This document shows, one piece after another, positions 1,539 to 60,912 of a stretch of DNA of 64,000 nt (position 1 is its first letter; each line of letters starts with the position of its first letter). The notes beneath the pieces were generated by a model, which was not told the origin of the DNA, did no database searches, and was given only the letters and a program-made list of their open reading frames with translations. A program made the translations under genes and the position numbers. This DNA comes from Aphrocallistes beatrix (lineage: Eukaryota; Porifera; Hexactinellida; Sceptrulophora; Aphrocallistidae): contig OY725502.1 in assembly GCA_963281255.1 (NCBI GenBank), positions 2,790,001 to 2,854,000 of the forward strand, read 5' to 3'.

Positions 1539-2760
1539 TTATGGACAACGAGTTCCAACAGTATATGGAAAGGAAAAATCTTGAGTATCCACTGGACCAT
1601 CTGCTTCATCAGCGCGGATGTGATCCATGTGGCGATGTATTATCCTGCCATCGTCCAATTTGACTATAAACGATAATGGTCCGCTTTTCTCCGTTAGGAT
1701 ACCCTTTAACCAGGACGTCACATGCGGGAAATTGCGCACGAAGACGCGTGAGCTAATCGTGAGATCCCTCAGCTTAGCTGCACAGTCGTACCTTTCCTTC
1801 TGTAATTGTTGTTTAACTCCTATTCGAGCTGAAAGATCAGGGATAAGGCGACTGAAGTGCGATCTGAGCTGCCTTTCCATAAGCAGTTCAGCTGGAGTTA
1901 TTCCCGTGGTTGAATGGGGGTAATATGGTAGTGGAATAAGAATCTAGATATTCTTGTTTCCAGTGATTCTGTAGAAGTTCTTTCCATACTGTCTTTAAAC
2001 GTCTGTACCGCCCCCTCGACTTGGTCATTGGAAGAGGGGTGGTATGGAGCAGTTCTCTATCGAATACCATTCTTCCTCGTAAACTCCTGAAATTCTGCAC
2101 TAGTGAATGCAGTTCCGTTATCTGACACGATTATCTCAGGTAATCCATGCGTTGCAAATAAGGCTCTCAGTTTTTCGAGAGTAGAATTCGAAGTCGCCGA
2201 ATGTACTATTGATACCTCCATTCATTTCGAGTGGGCATCCACTACTATAGGGAACATCTTCCCCATGAATGGACCAGCAAAATCAATGTGGATACGCGAC
2301 CATGGACGATCAGGCCACTCCCAAGGATGTAATGGCGCCTTAGGAGGCGAATGTCTTGATAACTGATAAGGCTCGCATGACTTAACTTTCGTTTCAAGCT
2401 GTTGATCCATTCCAGGCCACCATAAGAAACTTCGTGCCAAGCTTTGCATGTGCGATATCCCTGGATGTGCTTCATGGAGCAATTCAAGAACCAATACTTG
2501 GCCTTTATTTGGTATCACGACACGAGTCCCCCACATAATACATCCATCTTGCACGCTTAACTCATCCTTTCTGCGACAGAAAGGTATAGTCTCCTCGTCC
2601 GTCAAATGCGGCCACCCGAGATGCAAGAATCGGCGAATCCGAGATAACAATGGATCGCGGCTGGTCAATTGGCTAATTCGCTCCGCAGTAAATTCTGATA
2701 GCTCGAGGTTCCTCATGAGTAGTATCGTTTCCCCAGGAACAGGAATATCCGTCGGGTAAT
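1539..2760 (-). pseudogene. Gypsy integrase fossil
   Basis: Minus-strand pieces of a Ty3/Gypsy integrase: an HHCC-type zinc-binding segment near 2480-2350, a catalytic-core segment near 2340-2220, and a C-terminal piece with DGRIIHRHMDHIR near 1650. Part of the broken pol region of the 1175-5607 element. Confidence 0.85.
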
Positions 2761-3514
2761 TAGGTAGGGGTAGACGATTCAAGCCATCTGCATTGCCAAT
2801 TTCCCCACCAGGTCTGTACACAATCTTGTAATCGTATGCGCCAAGAATAAGGGACCATCTCTGTAGCCTTGCAGATGCTAAAGGTGGGACTGGATGCGTG
2901 TGTCCAAAGATGTATTGTAGTGGCTTGTGGTCAGACTTGATCAAGAAGGCGTCCATAAAGAAATTGGTGAAATCTTTTAACTGCAAAGATAATTGCCAAA
3001 CCCTCCTTATCGAGCTGAAAGTATTTCTTCTCCGCGATGGCAAGTGAGCGCGAAGCGTAATAGATAGGCCTCTCTGTGCCATCTTCTAAAACATGCGACA
3101 GTACGGCTCCAACTCCATATGGTGACGCGTCACAGATGACAACGAGGTCTTTATCGGGCTGAAAGTGAACGAGTATCTGGGATGATGATAGCACCCCTTT
3201 GCCTTCCGGAAGGCGCTCCCCTGAGCTCTACCTCAATCCCACTTGACATGTTTCTGTAACAACCAGTGTAATGGAGCCATCAAGATTGAGAGATTGGGAA
3301 TGAACTTCCCATAATAATTCATAAGCCCTAGGAATGACCGTAATTCAGAGGTGGTCTTTGGGGTGGGCGCGTTCTGTATTGCTTGAGTCTTCTTGCCACT
3401 TGGTCTGAGGCCTTCAGCATCAATGACATGTCCCAGATATTCAATTGATGGGAGTAAAAATGCACATTTGTGTCGTTTGAGACGAAAACCAGCTTGCTTG
3501 AGACGCAATAGCAC
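2760..3514 (-). pseudogene. Gypsy RNase H region fossil
   Basis: Pieces of the RT connection and RNase H region: LGHVIDAEGLRPS and FLGLMNYYGKFIPN near 3420-3300, then CDASPYGVGAVLSH near 3130 and IYYASRSL near 3065. Broken; belongs to the element above. Confidence 0.85.
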
Positions 3515-3526
3515 TGCCTTAATTAA

Positions 3527-3640
3527 CCCTCGCTTGCCACAGGAATGTGTTGCGTCATTTCCGGTTTAAGCCATTTTCAATGGGGAAGCCATAAAAATTG
3601 TATTTACTATAAATAGGAAATACCCCAAGCCGTCCGGGGG
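3527..3640. mobile_element. Small TTAA MITE (piggyBac-like, family C)
   Basis: 114 bp flanked by TTAA (3523-3526, 3641-3644), with ends beginning CCC and related at low identity. A second copy in the other orientation is at 24436-24553 and shares the AATGTGTTGCGTCATTTCCG block. TTAA targets and CCC ends are typical of piggyBac-type elements. It lies inside the Gypsy fossil. Confidence 0.8.
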
Positions 3641-4647
3641 TTAAGGTTGTGAAGGTGATCTTCACTAACGCCTGTTATAAGTTTATCGTCAAGGTAAATA
3701 CAAGTACAAACGCGTGGCAACCCTCGTAGGATGCTCTCCATAGTCCTCTGGAAGATCGCTGGTGTGGCCAATAAACCAAACGGAAGGCGATTGTATTGGA
3801 ATAGCCCCCTCTGTGTGTTTATGGTAGTGTATTTCTTCGACCGTTCTTCTAAGGGAATTTGCAAGTAGGCGTGGGCTAAATCCAGCTTGGTAAATGACTT
3901 ACCTCCTGATAACGACGCTAAAAGGTCATCAATCCGTGGTAGCGGATAAGTATCTACTAATGCAAAAGCATTCGCGGTTACTTTATAGTCCCCACAGATA
4001 CGTACCGATCCGTCCCCTTTAACAATGGGTACTATTGGCACTGCCCATTCCGCAAATCGTACAGGCTCAATGACGCCCTGACTCTGTAGCCGATCAAGCT
4101 CCTTCTCCACTCTCCCGCGTAAGGCAAACGAAACTATCCTAGGGCGAAAAATTTTTGGAAGAGCGTTGGGATCGACACAAATTTTGGCGCGAATATCCCC
4201 CACACAACCAAGTTCATCTTGGAATAGAGGCGAGTAAAAATCCAAAATCCTCGTCAGCTCACTCGAGGTGGGAATCTGATGAAGCTGGGACCAATTCAAT
4301 TCTATCTTCCTTAGCCAATCACGTCCAAGCAGGCTGGGGCCATTTCCTTCTACCACTAGCAAGTTCAACCTTTCTTCCTGCCCGTTAAGTTTTACATCTA
4401 CTTCAAGATTGCCCATTACCTTGATCTTTTCGCCAGTATAGGTCCTCAGTCGGGCTCCAGAGGGTTGTAGCAATGGGGGTTTTCCATCGGCCCATAACGT
4501 TTCGTCAGTGTTTTGACTAATTATTGACAAAGTCGCTCCCGTGTCCACTTCTAACAATAGGTTTGCTCCATTGATCGTCGCTGTCACCTGCATAGGATGA
4601 TTGTTTCGGTCCTTCACATTGAATAAGTTATATTCCCCACACTCCAT
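3607..4647 (-). pseudogene. Gypsy protease-reverse transcriptase fossil
   Basis: A long open piece of pol with a retropepsin-like VDTGATLSII region near 4555-4510 followed by a Ty3/Gypsy reverse transcriptase (DGSVRICGDYK, FTKLDLAHAYLQI, YLDD). Its downstream boundary lies at the inserted TTAA MITE. Fossil; not separately functional. Confidence 0.88.
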
Positions 4648-4810
4648 ATCCCCACTGGCCTCGTCAGGCTGAACCTGGTGTGTATCTTGAGACTGTATCT
4701 GATGCGTATCTTTCTGGCGAGGGTGTAGAAACGACGTGCTCTTCGGCTTGCTCCGACAAACTTTGGATAGGTGTCTTTGCTTCCCACACGGCCTGCGCCA
4801 TAACGATAGC

Positions 4811-5357
4811 CTACAAAGCTTGACTCCTCCCGGACGTACTTTTCACGAAGTAAAGCTTCTCTGAACTTTGCAAATCATGGACATTACGCTCCGCGGATTC
4901 TGCTGCTTGAGCTAGGTCGAATGCCTTCTTAAACGTCAAATCTGGCTCGGAAAGCAAACGGCGTTGGATACCACTGTCGCTAATACCACACACAAGACGG
5001 TCACGGAGCATATCATTTAGCGAATCCGAAGCCACAATGCTCGGACAGCTTCCTTAGCTCAGCAACGCAGACCGCAACTGCCTCACCGTCCCTGCGAGAT
5101 CGAGAGTGGAACGTAAACCTCTCCACAATAACTTAAGGCGTAGGTTGTAGGTGGTTCTCGGCCGGTATGACAGGAGCGAGCAAGCTCTTCAGGAGCTGGT
5201 ACGTCTCCGCGCCACACACGCTAATGAGGATCGCCCTCTGTTTATCCTCAGAAACGATCTCGTTAGCCGCAAAATACTGCTGAAGCCTTTCAGTGTATGA
5301 GGTCCAGTCTTCTTCACCGGCCTCAAATTCGCTAATGACTCCGTACCTGGATGCCAT
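4811..5357 (-). pseudogene. Gypsy gag fossil
   Basis: Two pieces of a gag-like protein beginning MASRYGVISEFEAGEEDW just inside the 5' LTR, with a retrotransposon-gag-like helical segment and no clear relation to host genes. Assigned by position and by resemblance to Mag-like gag N-termini. Confidence 0.75.
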
Positions 5358-25930: not shown

Positions 25931-27130
25931 ACGTAGGGCACTCGGAAAGTTTTGACGTTTGCTATGAAACCATTAATCTAGAAGAAAGATTTATTGTTAA
26001 TTCGTTTCATTTTGCGGTTATTAGTATACACTGAAAATTTCATTCATTTATCTTTCATACTTCCAGAAATATTTGACTTGTTAGTCTGCATGGCTTCTAA
26101 CTTGCTTACTACATCATCCTCAGATTTCACAAGACGTGATTTTCGGGCAATTATTTTGATTTTATTCAAAATGAAAAAGACGAGGCAGGAGATCCATGAA
26201 ACTTCACAGGAACATTTCCCAGTTGTTGCTCCTTCTTTGAGTACAGTTGAGCGATGGTACAGAGAATTTACTCATGGGAACTTCGTTCTAGAGGATGCTC
26301 CTCGTGCAGGGAGACCGAGTGTTTCCCACAATGAACAAAATGTGGATCAAGTACTGGAGCTAGTGATCCAGGATTCTCATGTTACATACGCTCAGATAGA
26401 GCATGAAACTGGCCTCTCATCGGGGACTATTAATGTCATTATACATAAAGAACTTTGTCTACGAAAGTTGTGTGCCCGCTGGATCCCCCATTCTTTGACT
26501 TTACAGCAAAAATCGGCCCGAGTTGACTTTTGCAAAATTATGCTCAAAAGATTTGATAATGGAACTTCAAGGGCTGTTTCGGATATTCTTACAGGGGATG
26601 AAACATGGATATACCATTATGATCCGGAAACAAAACAACAATCGAAGGAGTGGGTGGAAGAAGATGCACCACCTCCAACAAAAGTACGAAGGGCGAAATC
26701 TGTAGGGAAGCAAGTGTGGGCAATTTCTTTTAGATCCAGTGGGTTTGTAGCAGCTGTGGCGCTTGAGGATAGAAAAACAGTTACTGCCGATTGGTACACC
26801 ACAGTATGCCTCCCCAAAGTTATCACAGAAATAAATTCACATCGTGAAAAGACGGGTGTCAGGGGAATTTTGCTCCATCATGATAACGCATCATCTCACA
26901 CCGCACTCAGAAATCGCGAGTTTTTGGAAGATTCTGGACTTAGAACACTGTCCCATCCTCCCTACAGTCCAGACCTAGCCCCTTGCGACTTCTGGCTGTT
27001 CCCTACGATAAAGAATGAGTTGCGTGGAAAGAGATTTTCATTGAATGAGGAACTGGCGAGGTGATCGAAACCATACCCAAAGATGAGTGGAAAATGTGTT
27101 TTCAGAAGTGGTTTAGTAGAATGAAAAAAT
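25931..27130 (+). mobile_element. mariner element, 3'-truncated
   Basis: GTAGGGCACTCGGAAAGTTT at about 25931 is a plausible left inverted repeat. The right end is missing because the pogo-like element begins at 27131, inside the end of the transposase. Confidence 0.6.
26090..27064 (+). pseudogene. mariner transposase
   Basis: First ATG at 26090 (MASNLLTTSSSDFTRRDF) gives 324 codons. There is an N-terminal helix-turn-helix pair (STVERWYREFTHGNF, then RAGRPS linker) and a DDE/D domain with D of TGDETW, D of HHDNASSH and D of SPDLAPCDFW; the last two are 34 residues apart, the D34D spacing of mariners. A frame shift near 27060 moves the normal ending (IPKDEWKMCFQKWFSRMKK) to another frame, which is then cut off by the next insertion. 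The enzyme would excise and paste DNA at TA sites. The copy is almost full length but inactive as read. Confidence 0.92.
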
Positions 27131-32171: not shown

Positions 32172-32898
32172 CTATAAGTTCCTCAAGATGCTCAGGTTGG
32201 TTAACACAGAGATCAGAGGAAGCGAGATCAGCAAGAAAGATTGGGAGGTTGATGGATTTGGAACGATAGGAAACCTCCTGAGAGGAAAGAGAAGGTTTCG
32301 AAAGCGAGAGACTACAAGAGTTTGAGAAATGGTCAGAGAATAGATGGACGGAGAGGGATCAGAGAGGATGATGTTCTCAGCAGAACGGGATATTATCAGA
32401 TCGAGAATGTGACCCTTCTCATGAGTTGACTGATTCACATGCTGGATCAAAGATAGAGAACGAAGGAGCTCGGAGAACTGAAGAGACTCAGATGGGGTGT
32501 CAACATGGATATTGAAGTCTCCAGTTATAATTAGGGACTCCTTGCATAAGGGGATGGGTTCGAGGAGGGAAGAAAACTGTTCAAGGAAGGTATAAATAGA
32601 AATAGGATGATTCCTTGAGTAGGGAGGCCGATAAATTAGGATAATACGAAGGGAGATTTCAGAAGAAGAGATAGTCCAGTCCGAGAACTCAAAAGATGAT
32701 ACCTCACCAGATGTATTGCACTTCAGCGTCAAGGAATCACGACAGAGAAGTGCAGTGCCTCCACCCTGATGATGTGCCGACCGAGCGCGATCAAGGAGTT
32801 TGTAGCCGGATGGAGTGCATTCAAATCTCACTGCCGCATCCCTTGACGTAAACCAGGTCTCAGTAACGGCAACAACGTCAGGATGGTGGTCAGATACA
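32172..32898 (-). pseudogene. LINE endonuclease region
   Basis: AP-endonuclease-like segment: VVAVTETWFTSRDAAVRFEC just before the Helitron, then GGGTALLCRDSL, IILIYRPPYSR, LIITGDFNIHVD, HILDLIISR. The expected SDHxxI-type ending is lost after a frame change near 32360. Confidence 0.85.
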
Positions 32899-32932
32899 TC
32901 CTTACTATTAAAACTCGATTAATCTATATGTA

Positions 32933-35370: not shown

Positions 35371-35599
35371 TGCTCTCAGTGGTTCCCGCCAAGCACGTTA
35401 AGCCTGCTATGAGCACGTTTAGCTTGTCGAATAACTGGATTTTGGTGTAAAAACCCGAAAAAAACGCACAAAAATTTCAAGGTTAACGTGCATTCCAATA
35501 ATCCTTAGGGAAACACTGATTGCTCTACACCATAAACACTTGTACAATGAAAAGTGTTTTGCGATAATGACAAGACTATATGTACTTCTATATATATTA

Positions 35600-36231
35600 G
35601 GGTGCTCCAAAAAATTCGAAAGTTTGAATCTTTAGATGCACACTCTTCAAATAGTTTACTTTGATCACCAAAGTATTCACCAGAAAATTTTCATGCAATT
35701 TGAGGATGGTTTAGTAGTTGCGCAAGGTAGCTTCCCCCTCGTGCTAATTTATAATGGGATATGTCGGGGTTTGTGCCAAAAGTTGTAAAAGGCGTATTTC
35801 TGAATTTTAAATAAACTAGTAACTTTATTTTTGTGATATTTGGGGGTGGTTTCATATAAGCTTGGTGAAAACAGTTATTACAAAATAATTTCAACTGTGA
35901 AGGTTGGTCCCAACTGTTTTCACCAATATCTCGGAGCCGGTAGATTTTAGGTTATCAAAATGTATTATTAGCTTATATGAAACCACCCCCAAATATCACA
36001 AAAATAAAGTTACTAGTTTATTTAAAATTCAGAAATACGCCTTTTACAACTTTTGGCACAAACCCCGACATATCCCATTATAAATTAGCACGAGGGGGAA
36101 GCTACTTTGCGCGACTACTAAACCATCCCCAAATTGCCTGAAAATTTTATGGTGAATACTTGGTGATCAAGGTAAACTATTTCAAGAGTGTGCATCTAAA
36201 GATTCAAACTTTCGAATTTTTTGGAGCACCC
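35600..36231. mobile_element. Foldback MITE with about 275-bp arms
   Basis: 632 bp between TA dinucleotides. Ends GGGTGCTCCAAAAAATTCGA and its exact inverse. Arms 35600-35875 and 35955-36231 are near-identical inverted repeats around a loop of about 80 bp that carries a nested GGTGAAAACAGTT/AACTGTTTTCACC pair. No coding capacity. Confidence 0.92.
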
Positions 36232-36428
36232 TAATATATGGTTGCAAAATATTGATGAAGGCGGTGGAGCTGAGACAATTTTCCAACTAACAACCTCCCT
36301 AAATATAATACTGATTCACAAATTTTGATTCTAAATATATTACAGAAATTTGACTATTAACAGACTATACTTAAGGATATTATGCTAATTATAATTTTTT
36401 TTGATACTATAATTTAATTCCTCATTTA
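36232..36428. other. Upstream region of the channel exon, probably intron
   Basis: A pyrimidine-rich run (TTTTTTTTGATACTATAATTT...) leads to GTTGTCTAG at 36445-36453, a plausible 3' splice site. No ATG continues into the exon. Confidence 0.5.
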
Positions 36429-38036
36429 TTGACATTATTCAATTGTTGTCTAGATAATTTCTTTTCTCGATACTTTTCCTTGAATCCACATGATTCTAGA
36501 ATTTTGTATTGGCTATTCCTTCTTTCACTTATTTACCTATACAATGTTTTATTCGTTACATATCGCCTTGTCTTTCCTATTTTTAATGAAAAATTTTGGC
36601 ATTTCTTTTTGATTATTGATATTATTGCTGACATATATTATTACATTGACATACTTGTGCAAATTCGTACTTGTTATCTAAATCAAGGCTACATCGTTAT
36701 TTCTGGATCTTTGTTGACTAGGCAATATGTTTTTGTGGATAAAACTGTATTTTTAGACATTTTTACAGTGCTACCTATTGATTATTTTTTGTATCTACAA
36801 TCTCATGCCCTACCTTATCAAAACATTATTGTCGGAGTCAGAGTTTTAAGATTTTTAAAATATTATCGAATTCGAAATTTTTTCAATCGAATGGAAGCAA
36901 GAAGCGATAACCCTTCTATTGTCGAAATTTTATCTCTCTTCATTTTTCTATTAAATTGGATACACATAGTGGCATGCATTTATTTTGGGCTGTCTTTAAT
37001 AATTGGATTCGGAGATGATAAATGGGTATATCCTTGTACTCTGTCTAATGTAACGAATATTTGTAAAAATGCATCCTATGGCTCCTCGATTCCTTTTGGA
37101 GATATTTTGCAGCAATATTGCAATAGTTTACATTGGGGTACACAGATCGTTACTACTATAGGCGAAGTTGAAGGACCGGTGACCAATTTCGAACATGTAG
37201 TCGTCATTTTTCTCTTGATATGCGGTATTTATTGGTATGCTACTCTGATTGGTGAGGTTGGAAATACAATTCAAACTTTGAATGTTAATCGAACAAGATA
37301 TACAACACGTTTGGATAATATTAAACAATACATGGGAAAATTTTTGATAGAATCCAATCTCCAATATATGGTTGTAAATCTTTTCGATCACCTCTGGACA
37401 GCGAAAAAAGGAGTAGATGAACAAGAAATTTTAGAAAATTTACCCAAGAAATTGAGAGCTCAAATAGCTTATTCAGCAAATCAGCATTTATTAAAGGAAA
37501 ATCTTTTATTTCAAAATCAGCCATTAGGGTTCCAAATTGATCTAATTTTGAGAATGAAAACACAAATATTATTGCCTAATGAGTGTATATATAGACAAGG
37601 ATACATAGGGAATGATATGTATATTATTCGTGAAGGAAATGTCACTTTAAGTACTATTTTTCCAGGGAATCCCCCTCTTATCAAAGAATTAACATGCGGT
37701 AACTACTTTGGTTTGAGTTGTGTTATTAATTTCGATTTTATTGGTCGACGGCGTGAAGAAACTGCGAAAGCAAAAGGTTTTTGTAGTATCTGGGTAATTG
37801 AAAAGCGTATTTTATTAGATGTCTTACTAGACTATCCAATAGTGATGAATTATCTAGGGGAATATTTCAAAAAGGCATTTTTCGATCCTAATATTGATAA
37901 AAAGAGAGATATTAAAGGTGGTTTGTATACAATAGAAGAATTAAACTCTCAATTAAGAAATCTTGATCAATATCGTAGAGAATTAAGTCATTATTTTAAA
38001 CAAGTCAAAAATGAACAGAATTTATATTCGAACTAA
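36429..38036 (+). CDS. Cyclic-nucleotide-gated channel-like protein, main exon
   Basis: 535 codons open, single exon (residues counted from TTG 36429). S1 about 26-47, S2 57-80, S3 101-120, S4 132-150 (VRVLRFLKYYRIR), S5 164-192, then GFGDDKWVYP, pore 230-252 with TTIGE (CNG-type filter, not HCN GYG), S6 254-282, C-linker 283-355 (LWTAKKGVDEQEILENLPKK), cyclic-nucleotide-binding domain 360-478, C-terminal coiled-coil-like tail 501-525. Family members are tetrameric plasma-membrane cation channels opened by cGMP or cAMP. Gap-free alignment to bovine CNGA1 from FG to TA puts Leu429 at Glu544 and Glu444 at Arg559, the ribose and phosphate contacts; the Thr (445) is kept. There is no in-frame ATG before residue 155, so the exon probably begins at a splice acceptor (36452-36453) and the start codon lies upstream. 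No disabling stop occurs over 1.6 kb. Confidence 0.93.
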   Translation: MTLFNCCLDNFFSRYFSLNPHDSRILYWLFLLSLIYLYNVLFVTYRLVFPIFNEKFWHFFLIIDIIADIYYYIDILVQIRTCYLNQGYIVISGSLLTRQYVFVDKTVFLDIFTVLPIDYFLYLQSHALPYQNIIVGVRVLRFLKYYRIRNFFNRMEARSDNPSIVEILSLFIFLLNWIHIVACIYFGLSLIIGFGDDKWVYPCTLSNVTNICKNASYGSSIPFGDILQQYCNSLHWGTQIVTTIGEVEGPVTNFEHVVVIFLLICGIYWYATLIGEVGNTIQTLNVNRTRYTTRLDNIKQYMGKFLIESNLQYMVVNLFDHLWTAKKGVDEQEILENLPKKLRAQIAYSANQHLLKENLLFQNQPLGFQIDLILRMKTQILLPNECIYRQGYIGNDMYIIREGNVTLSTIFPGNPPLIKELTCGNYFGLSCVINFDFIGRRREETAKAKGFCSIWVIEKRILLDVLLDYPIVMNYLGEYFKKAFFDPNIDKKRDIKGGLYTIEELNSQLRNLDQYRRELSHYFKQVKNEQNLYSN

Positions 38037-47263: not shown

Positions 47264-49942
47264 CAGGGTTTCATACAGAGGGGGGGTGGCCCTGGGATTT
47301 CCCCCCACAGGACAATATCAACAATCTTGAACATGTTGACATTATGTGAGATTACAACAAAGGGCAGGCTATATGATACTATTATTCTAAATCATGAAAT
47401 CACTATTGCTGTTAATAAAATACAGAAGTCAGTAATGATTATATGCTATATTATAACTGAATTCGACGATTATTCTCTTTAAAAACTTCAAGAACTTCAT
47501 CAAAGTTAACTGAGGATAACTCTGGACCTTCGATTGCGATTCTCATTAAATGTGCGAGATTAGCATTATTAAGCCTATTCCGAAGTCTAGTCTTAATTTG
47601 CTTCATGCTGCTGAAAGATCTCTCAACTGAAGCTGTCCCTACTGGAAGAACAAGAATGATGTTAAGTAGCTTGAATATCTCTGGAAAGATACCAGTGTAA
47701 GCTCCAGATGCCGCCATGCGAGCTTTGACATCTTGTAGGCTTGGTGCTTTGGTAGTCTTATTTTCTTCCCAGACCAACCTTGATTCGTGAATCAATGCTC
47801 GCCTGAACAAGCGCCACTCAACATCAATTTCATCCTTGTCAATAAGTGATGGGGAGTATATGTTACACCATCATAGAAAACTGTTGCTTCATTGCCATAA
47901 AATTGGGCCAAAACACTCATTTCTTTTTTACCATAATCTAGTAAAGTTGCTTCTTCTGAAAGAAGAGATGTTGGATTGAAAACAGAGGAGGAGACAAGGA
48001 GATCTACAGCTTCACCAGAGAATCGGTTGCGGATGTTGTGTAGCAAAGCATCGATATAAGGAAGAGTAACCTTTTCTCGGAAATCAGTTAAAGATCCAAC
48101 ACAATCACCTCCCGCAAAGCTACGAGCTGAGCGGCCTCTTGTAATTGTGATTCCATGATCGCTCTCAAGCTCGTCAACCTGAGTGCTCACTCCAGAACAC
48201 CACTCGGCTTGGTCTTCCTTCAATTCATCTAGCTCTTTCAGAATGCTTTCAAGAATCAAAGATAGCCTGCTAAAGTCAGCAGTCTGCCTTTGCATGTAGC
48301 AACTAAGCCTGGAAAGGAGATCAAGTACTTCTGACAAAAGGAAAATGCTGGCTACTCCAGAAAAGGAGCTCAAGACAAGAGAAATTCCGTATGCTTCTGC
48401 ATCTCCTGACTTCTGGTAGAGCTCATGTAGAGTAATAATAAGAGCAGGAAGATCTTTACGGATTGCACGTAGGCACCGCTCATGGGACAACCACCTCGTG
48501 CTACTAGGCTTTACTACCTTCAGCTCAGGTAAATTTAGAACTGATTGTACAACCTTGAGAGCTTCTGCTTTCTTAGGCGAATAGTAGAATAGTTTCCACA
48601 GGTTGGTCATTGTGCCAAACATGTTGTTGATTATGGTGATGGACTCAGCAGCTTGAATAGATGCCAGTTGAATTCGGTGGTATGTACAGTGTATGTATAC
48701 TGCATGAGCTGAGTGCGTTCTAATCCTTCTTTGGACACCATTTTTACATCCAGAAAAGGTTGCTGCACCATCGTAGCCTTGCCCAACTAGCCGTCTGTAG
48801 TCGAGATTTTTCTCTTCCATGAAAGAGGTGAGAGCTTTTGTGATTGAGGCAGCATTTACTTCCTTGACATGGAGTATATCTAGAAAGTGTTCCTCGGGAT
48901 AGCCATCCATAATCCACCTGCAACAGATAGATAGCTCTTCCTGTGTGGATATATCTTGACACTCATCTGCTAAGATAGAAAAAAATGGGATGGACCTCAA
49001 ACTCTGCAATTGCTTTCCTTCAAGCCACGTGTCAAGAGCTTCCAGAAATATCACTGCACTGTACTTTGATGTGTAATGAGCATTGGAGGCACCTCGAGTG
49101 AGGTGCTCTTCCAGCAAACCATCTCCATTGGCAACCTGTAAGGCAATTAAATTTGAGTAAACAGTGGTGTTAGGAATCTTGTCCTTTGCCAGGAAATAGA
49201 TTGACCTCATCAGCTTAAGTACGATTATACGATTCCTCTCCGCTCTACACGCAGCCTCTTTTGCAGCAGCTGAACACTGTAACTCAAGAACGGATTTCCC
49301 GCACTCTGCCTGCTGTGACATACTAGCAGTGGTTGCAGCATCTCTATGACACCGTGACTCTTCGTGTGCTCTCAATAGTTCATTAGCATGGTTCCAGTCG
49401 GTAATTCCCCTGCTTGTCCAAGCACCCCTTGAACCTGAGGTTGGAAGGCCCCACTTCTTGCAGATGGTGCAGAACATGCCTATGCTAGCATCTTTACAAG
49501 TTACCCAGGGATACTTGTTTTCCCACTCTCTTTTATAAGAGAGCTTAGCTTTATATTGCTTTATCTGCTCACTAGATGATAGTTTGTGTATTTTGGAATG
49601 AGGTGGTTTTGGAAGCAGATCATCCATGGCAGCAATTCCTGGATTTTGAGAGGAGGGTGGAGAATGACTTCCACTTGATAGTTGTGATAGCTCTTCAGAT
49701 GCACCTTTATCTATATCTATTTCACTTGGAGTGTCTTCATGTGGCCGCTTTTGTGAAATGAATCGCCTGATATCCATATATACAATACTTGTAGGTTTAC
49801 TCAGATCTAAATCTAGAGATCTTAAAAATCTAAAGATATGTAGGTTAAATGACAAGAATGGTTGTAAATCGATATTTAAGCGTCAATGATTAAAAAAAAA
49901 TTCCTCCCCCCCCCCAGAAAAAAATCCTGTATGAAACCCTGG
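47264..49942 (-). mobile_element. Nearly complete hAT transposon
   Basis: 2679 bp, inverted ends CAGGGTTTCATACAG, G/C-homopolymer runs next to both ends, one transposase gene filling most of the element. The expected 8-bp duplication is not evident (AATGTGTG versus GTATATAA). Confidence 0.88.
47451..49777 (-). pseudogene. hAT transposase (ZNF862/ZMYM-like), one frameshift
   Basis: Start ATG at 49777 (MDIRRFISQKRPHE), preferred to the longer frame because that opening is common in this group. Low-complexity N-terminus, then a TTF-type zinc finger (FCTICKKWG ... HEESRCHRDA), catalytic region with SILADECQDISTQEEL, VGQGYDGAATFSG and HCTYHRIQLA, and a C-terminal hAT dimerisation domain (LPVGTASVERSFSSMKQIKT). 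About 775 residues in all. A single-base frame change near 47850 separates the last about 130 residues; no other disruption was noticed. Such proteins catalyse cut-and-paste transposition and have been domesticated many times. Confidence 0.9.
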
Positions 49943-59554: not shown

Positions 59555-60912
59555 AAAGTATGCCCCGAAAGTCTTTTCCTATTTGATTTGAAATTATAAA
59601 ATTAATAATACGTGTCATAGGGGTTTAATTATTTCCCAATATAACCTCCTTTCATTACTACACACTTCCTCATTCTGTCTGGCATGCCATCTATCAATCT
59701 TCTGAGTAAATCAGGACTGATGTCCGACCACAACGTTTTCAGATTTTTTTCCAGCATTTCTAGATTCGTCGCAGGAGGTATCTCTGATAGGTTTTGTTTA
59801 AACACAGCCCACAAAATTTCAATCGGAGAAAGATCAGGAGAGTTGCCTGGCCATACTTCTTTCGCCCAGTAACCAGGAAGATTCAATCGACACCATTCCT
59901 GGCTCGATTTTGAGGTGTGAGCAGGGGCTCCATCCTACTGAAAGATGGCATTCGACATGTTTTCGCAAAGTTTTCTCTCCAGAATCGTCCCTTTTGACCG
60001 CCTACGAGCGAAGGCAGATTTACATGGGCCAGCTAGGATGTTATCCACATAATATTTGACATTTACAGTGCATTTCTGAGGAAGAATGTGTAATTCTGAC
60101 ACAACATTAGCTGACATAGCGCCCCATACCATCAAATATGGGGGAAATTTTGATGTGAGAACCGGAGGTATATTTTGAGCATCAGAGTCCCAAACGCGAT
60201 CTGTTTGTCGGTTTGAAGGTTCAAACAGATGAAAAGGAGCTTCGTCCGAGAATACGATGTTAGCACAATCCTTAGCTGACCAATTGAGCCTTTCTTTACA
60301 AAATTGTAATCTGTGAACCCTCTGTTTTTCCGTTAATCTCGGATTGCGGGATCGTTTGTAGCTTTTGAGGCCAAGCTTTTCCCTCAAATAGCGATGTATG
60401 GCGGTTTTGGAGGTCTTGTGGCCACGAGCGGTTAGTCTTCTCCCCAGTTTTCTTGTCGACTGGTGTCTCTTACCAACAGACTCTGAAATCACAATTTTAG
60501 CCACTCTCGTTAGTGAAGATGGCCTCCCTGATCTGGGTTTATCAATCAGACTTCCACCACACTTATTGCGTAACCACCAATTATTTACTATTTTGATTGT
60601 TTTCCCAAGTCTTCTAGCAACGTCTTTCTGTGTAATCCCTGCTTCTAACATTGCTATCGCTTTGACACGCACAAGATTTGAAGAAGGATTCATTAAATTT
60701 GACATCTAATATCCGAAAAAAAATGAAATTTGTAAATTTAAAAAAAAAATTGAGACGAATACAATTCCTTGGAAAATATAGCTATTATTTAATCTTTTAA
60801 CACGTTGCCAAAAGTAAAATAGTTGTAAGTTTAACTTTGTTGGACTAGATGAGCTAAGGGTGCATAATATAGTCGAAATTATAATAGGAAAATACTTTCG
60901 GGACATACTGCA
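59555..60912 (-). mobile_element. Tc1-like transposon
   Basis: About 1.36 kb. Inverted ends AGTATGCCCCGAAAGTCTTT and the inverse of AGTATGTCCCGAAAGTATTT. TA lies next to both ends. One transposase gene fills the inside. Confidence 0.87.
59629..60705 (-). pseudogene. Tc1-like transposase with one stop codon
   Basis: ATG at 60705. 358 codons in one frame, interrupted only by TAG at 59935-59937 between FQ and DGAPAHT; most family members have FQQDGAPAHT there, so a CAG-to-TAG change is likely. N-terminal paired-type helix-turn-helix (VRVKAIAMLEAGITQKDVAR, GRPSSLTR), catalytic D of FSDEAPFHLF, D of QDGAPAH, and the third acidic residue in SPDLSPIEILWAVFK. The enzyme moves DNA by cut-and-paste into TA. 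Confidence 0.9.

Follow-up and report, generated by a model that had tools for sequence, protein, structure and literature searches.

A CNG-type channel frame with a replaced ribose-contact glutamate and a retained phosphate-contact arginine in its cyclic nucleotide-binding domain

The window, a 64,000-nucleotide stretch of DNA, contains a long open frame for a channel of the cyclic nucleotide-gated (CNG) type and raises the question of whether the cyclic nucleotide-binding domain (CNBD) of this channel can still respond to a nucleotide. A preliminary description had proposed that both classic ligand contacts of CNGA1, Glu544 and Arg559, are lost, and that the locus encodes a conserved channel that is weakly or differently gated, or an auxiliary subunit. 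The frame runs from stop to stop, comprises 543 codons plus the stop, and covers the channel from S1 to the CNBD and tail (Table 1). An open run of 543 codons has a chance of about 8e-20 at the base composition of the ORF, and a PDB search with its protein returned CNGA2, CNGA1, CNGA3, and TAX-4 (E = 3.7e-75 to 3.2e-68; matched stretches within residues 23–530). A real CNG-type channel with a long open frame is thus borne out, together with the retained TTIGE pore and the replacement of Glu544 by Leu. Judged from the sequence, the channel is ordinary in its architecture, and the loss of this single Glu is real and common to related channels.

Table 1. Coordinates of the channel frame, its parts, and neighboring features in the window.
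Feature	Position	Strand	Evidence
Window channel ORF	36405–38036	+	Open frame; PDB homology; paralog homology starts near 36454
S1–S6 and pore	36454–37289	+	Aligned to CNGA1/CNGA2
Selectivity filter TTIGEV, residues 250–255	37152–37169	+	Compare TTIGET in CNGA1/2
C-linker, approximate limits	37290–37490	+	Alignment with CNGA1 and CNGK repeat
CNBD and short C-helix	37491–37883	+	PF00027, E = 5.7e-11; segment model; Foldseek
Leu437 at Glu544 (ribose 2'-OH) position	37713–37715	+	HMMs; MAFFT alignments
Arg450 at Arg559 (cyclic phosphate) position, kept	37752–37754	+	HMMs; BLOSUM62 scoring; MAFFT
Glu451 (Thr560 position) and Glu452 (Ala561 position)	37755–37760	+	Alignments with CNGA1 and paralogs
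Candidate splice acceptor AG, TTGTTGTCT-AG, directly 5' of homology start	36452–36453	+	Sequence
Foldback (MITE-like) element	35592–36239	.	Arms 97–98% complementary; repeated across genome

Within the phosphate-binding cassette (PBC), the Glu544 position is occupied by Leu437 (Leu429 in the earlier numbering) and the Arg559 position by Arg450, and the residue formerly placed on Arg559 (Glu444) is Glu452, which falls on Ala561. Two registers compete here: an ungapped alignment from FG to TA, which then has to skip two residues on the way from TA to the Gly-Phe turn, and an alignment with a two-residue gap in the loop between the P-helix and beta-7. Two profile HMMs, one built from 14 canonical CNBDs and one from CNG sequences alone, set Arg450 on the conserved Arg with high posterior, and they did the same for two paralogs described below. 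With BLOSUM62, the gap-in-loop register was preferred in all 42 comparisons (14 canonical domains × three queries). The margins ranged from 1 to 37 units and were close, at 5 units or less, in eight cases. Arg450 always lay in the Arg column of five MAFFT alignments, whose partners were CNGA1/2, CNGA1 with a CNGK repeat, 15 bacterial CNBDs, three bacterial channels, and 13 other channel rows, and this column was invariant in 16/16 rows, including the 15 bacterial CNBDs (one more locus, L063, was left out). The distance from the F of FG to the Arg ranges from 11 to 17 residues across the 14 canonical CNBDs, so length changes sit in the P-helix/beta-7 loop, and the window protein and its two paralogs all have the motif R-x7-G-[FY] with the same spacing as in CNGA1. 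The reported change of Arg559 to Glu was therefore a register error of the ungapped alignment; by these alignments, Arg559 is kept and Glu544 alone of the pair is replaced. Without this correction, the pocket would have looked dead.

At the Thr560 position, the window copy has Glu451 and both paralogs have Ser; the Ala561 position is Glu in all three. The Asp604 position, which we take to be Pro495 of the window protein (counted from CNGA1 Glu544), holds no conserved residue among the window copy and the paralogs by this count of our own on the alignments. Prokaryote genomes were also searched for relatives with a pattern taken from the alignment, and none of the 143 pattern matches was confirmed.

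The eukaryotic assembly that contains the window (100.5 Mb, 28 contigs) was searched for related channels and CNBDs. Contig C10 carries two intronless tandem paralogs, L002 and L003, with frames of 665 and 642 aa that are 42% and 39% identical to the window protein; they have Ile and Met at the Glu544 position and keep the Arg. Two more distant single-repeat channels, L008 and L009, have Tyr and Phe at this position and keep the Arg as well. All five single-repeat channels thus carry a different residue for the Glu (L, I, M, Y, and F), and the Arg and the Gly-Phe turn are present in 5/5. Because the loss is common to all five, a sequencing error as its private cause in the window is rejected. 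A search with CNGA1 (10 matches among 13 scored candidates) recovered the same channels and, in a frame of 395 aa, one weak match to the CNBD; such a search could overlook a conventional gene split into many small exons. In L008 (961–3192) and L009 (1024–3165), the place of TTIGE or GYGD is taken by an unusual filter region, TNIHNQ[PS]RP.

The same genome contains a single frame of 2203 codons (L049:1306–7914; contig C1, about 6833306–6839914) with four channel repeats; every repeat has its own CNBD, and the filters read GFG or GYG. By these features, the frame is a CNGK-type K+ channel; its repeats 1–3 keep both the Glu and the Arg of the PBC, and repeat 4 has neither. In total, 25 PF00027 matches were found and sorted by eye into nine channel domains, seven PKA-R/PKG-like domains, six domains of other, PNPLA6/NTE-like or unassigned, proteins, in most of which no clear Glu/Arg pair is visible, and three that were partial or unreadable at the PBC. 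The seven domains, which we take to belong to PKA-R, PKG, or similar regulatory proteins, all have both Glu and Arg (7/7, as sorted by eye). Since the Glu is replaced in the single-repeat channels and kept in the PKA-R/PKG-like domains, the change is not one of cyclic-nucleotide sensing at large. Nucleotide-cyclase domains are also present in the genome (11 matches among 14 scored candidates).

In an IQ-TREE analysis of 14 rows, which include no CNGB, HCN, or CNGC–F sequences, the window protein groups with L002 and L003 in a single clade (100/99), and this clade, CNGA1/2, and L008/L009 make up a seven-row group without a settled inner order. The window protein shares with CNGA1–3 and TAX-4 the S1–S6 core, a TTIGE-type filter, the C-linker, the CNBD fold (recognized by PF00027, a segment model, and Foldseek), Arg559, and R-x7-G-[FY]; the Pfam Ion_trans model was not reached by the window copy at E ≤ 0.01 and was reached by both paralogs. 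It differs from these channels in the replaced Glu544, a PBC loop that is two residues shorter, the changed Thr560, the Asp604 position (unconserved by our own count), and the lack of a detectable CLZ, for which neither the window protein nor L002 and L003 gave a Pfam match at E ≤ 0.001. By architecture and tree, the protein is thus of the CNG type, and by its residue at Glu544, it is no canonical cyclic-nucleotide-binding subunit. Most classical CNGA are described as carrying a CLZ, and the CNGA-like clades CNGC–CNGF as lacking it and falling outside classical CNGA (PMC9803222); a possible likeness to CNGC–CNGF, drawn from that description, consists in the absence of the CLZ. CNGA and CNGB are reported there for the demosponge Amphimedon, and the words “hexactinellid” and “Oopsacas” do not occur in the main text of that paper (PMC9803222).

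Modelling of the binding domain, as suggested in the preliminary description, gave a CNG fold. The AlphaFold2 model of residues 296–503, computed with 15 bacterial relatives, has a pLDDT of 86.1; because Arg450 already stood on the bacterial Arg in the input alignment, the model cannot serve as independent evidence on the register. The best Foldseek match was a CNGA1/B1 entry (E = 6.1e-17), and the best 50 of 1576 matches were CNG, HCN-type, and SthK entries, with query TM-scores of 0.56–0.66 and rmsd values of 11.7–13.6, a combination of moderate TM and high rmsd that may reflect the orientation of the C-linker. In the model, beta-7 follows three residues after Arg450, and a three-residue turn leads into beta-8, an order that, compared with CNBD structures, fits the gap-in-loop register. 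The last helix stops at residue 493 and is followed by Asp-Pro. A full-length model from four rows reached a pLDDT of 49.1 and was set aside.

Another protein with this Glu replaced is Epac, a Rap exchange factor and not a channel, in which the replacements are polar or charged, unlike the hydrophobic residue of the window protein. In PKG, Glu183 is described as holding the ribose 2'-OH, and Arg192 and the amides of the P-helix as holding the phosphate (PMC3080414). The same Glu is given as conserved in PKA and channels and as replaced by Gln270 in Epac1 and Lys405 in Epac2, both of which nevertheless respond to cAMP; this single residue sets the response of Epac1 versus Epac2 to a 2'-O-methyl analogue (PMC4300089). 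A loss of nucleotide gating therefore does not follow from the loss of the Glu, and on these contact data a channel with the Arg but with Leu, Ile, or Met for the Glu is more likely altered than dead.

Our preferred reading, to which we assign a probability of about one half, is that the window encodes one of three closely related CNG-type subunits with an altered nucleotide response. It is favored by the register and by the loss of the Glu with the Arg kept in the single-repeat channels, as against the intact pair of the PKA-R/PKG-like domains, and also by the single clade of the three subunits, past constraint on the protein and the absence of a stop (see below), the CNG fold, the nucleotide-cyclase domains in the genome, and the Epac precedent. 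The earlier proposal of a conserved channel with weak or different gating, or an auxiliary role, is a fair reading in the same sense, although its premise of two lost contacts was wrong. Mechanistically, the CNBD would still cradle the cyclic phosphate through Arg450 and the backbone of the P-helix, and both the hydrogen bond to the ribose 2'-OH and the conserved Asp604 of the C-helix would be missing, so that binding is probably weak or of altered selectivity. Tolerance of 2'-substituted nucleotides would probably be closer to that of Epac1. Of the three, the window copy, with Glu451 beside its phosphate site, probably binds nucleotides least well, and its main role may be that of a modulatory subunit in heteromers with the C10 paralogs. 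Against this reading stand the possibility that Glu451 and Glu452 could repel the cyclic nucleotide from the phosphate site, the example of zebrafish CNGK as a CNG relative without nucleotide gating, and two properties of the window copy treated below, its low retention of conserved sites and its lack of an early ATG or a traceable paralog N-terminal part. In the literature that we searched (titles and beginnings of abstracts), no precedent was found for a CNG channel without this Glu; the clade may be seen as a natural test of how much change a CNG pocket tolerates before gating is lost.

Gating of the clade independently of nucleotides is a possible, if doubtful, alternative. It is consistent with the replacement of the Glu by a hydrophobic or aromatic side chain in all five single-repeat channels, with a Glu that is invariant in the three-member clade at the position of Glu452, and with the Asp604 position, where our own count finds no residue conserved among the three; against it, the Arg and the Gly-Phe turn are kept in all five channels, and the cAMP response of Epac persists without this Glu. 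A precedent is zebrafish CNGK, whose CNBDs are described as not conferring cyclic-nucleotide gating, the channel being gated by internal pH (PMC4749565). Zebrafish CNGK is a K+-selective four-repeat protein, however, whereas the window protein is a single-repeat one with a TTIGE filter.

Over 464 aligned codons, the identity of the window copy to L002 is 0.541 at first, 0.696 at second, and 0.308 at third codon positions, which argues for past constraint on the protein; selection was judged only from codon positions among the paralogs, with third positions saturated. At sites where the other two paralogs and CNGA1 agree, retention is 100/133 for the window copy, compared with 100/107 for L002 and 100/113 for L003; the window copy is thus faster evolving or relaxed and may be decaying. 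We consider it unlikely that, of the three, only the C10 pair works and the window copy is truncated at its 5' end or decaying, although this would be compatible with the other readings. Beyond the lower site retention, this idea draws on the 5' end: the ORF has no in-frame ATG before codon 163, which implies either an exon further upstream or loss of the 5' end, unlike the paralogs, whose N-terminal parts lie in the same open frame. These parts were not convincingly matched anywhere in the window, the best hit (E = 0.69) lying antisense within the ORF. It also draws on the surroundings, namely the foldback element just upstream and the other nine window ORFs of at least 150 aa, of which five have transposon-type domains and one a DUF4371. 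On the other hand, all 543 codons are open without a frameshift, and because 281 of the 4887 possible single changes would create a stop and none is present, any phase of neutral evolution can only have been brief. A plausible splice acceptor lies at the start of homology. In the 964 bases after the stop, A never occurs 7 or more times in a row, so that a polyadenylated retrocopy is not supported.

Loss of both Glu544 and Arg559, finally, is very improbable: the ungapped match is locally neat, with E-T-A on R-T-A, and comes close in the eight scorings mentioned above, but it was beaten in 42/42 scorings and by both HMMs and can be had only by deleting two residues from the stretch that links TA to the Gly-Phe turn.

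The foldback element is 648 bases long and ends 165 bases before the ORF. One of its arms matched 42 places in the genome, including its own two arms (40 candidates scored of 536), and other full-arm copies are 89–93% identical to the first arm of the window element. The remaining long ORFs of the window with Pfam domains encode an integrase zinc-binding domain (2222–3085), a reverse transcriptase with an aspartyl protease (3607–4842), a Mos1-like transposase (25982–27064), an endonuclease (32172–32918), a DUF4371 protein (47792–49882), and a Tc3-like transposase (59935–60705); three further ORFs of at least 150 aa had no Pfam match.

The mitochondrial contig C28 (17,996 bases) carries a COX1 gene with 11 TGA and no TGG among 447 codons read, and with ATA used 36 times. 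Its 11 AGA codons presumably encode Ser because familiar COX1 motifs are then restored. Taken together, this code (TGA as Trp, AGA as Ser, and no TGG) probably points to Hexactinellida. In glass sponges, AGR is described as Ser throughout the group, TGG as rare if used at all, and ATA as favored, AGR as Ser being otherwise reported from some bilaterian groups (PMC2267718). Many single-exon genes are also reported for glass sponges (PMC10282587). Since AGR as Ser is not exclusive to this group, a glass sponge is the likely host by these signs in combination.

The channels described here provide a concrete set for a probable glass sponge and are of interest for impulse conduction in this group. 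The genome paper on Oopsacas lists CNG/HCN channels and no obvious Kv, and presents the channels that reset the membrane potential as a puzzle (PMC10280926); the CNGK-type frame is a candidate for this K+ repolarization. A broader idea, tentative and somewhat unlikely to hold as a whole, is that in the nerveless, impulse-conducting glass sponges all single-repeat CNG-like channels have exchanged the Glu for a hydrophobic or aromatic residue, have kept the Arg, and have been re-tuned or given a new ligand, and that PKA, PKG, and CNGK of the K+ type are left with classical cyclic-nucleotide sensing. Innexin and Wnt gave no match in genome searches whose controls also matched nowhere, and the Oopsacas genome is described as lacking both (PMC10280926). 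The telomere pattern TTAGG had no match in the genome, and TTAGGG had four, all on contig C26.
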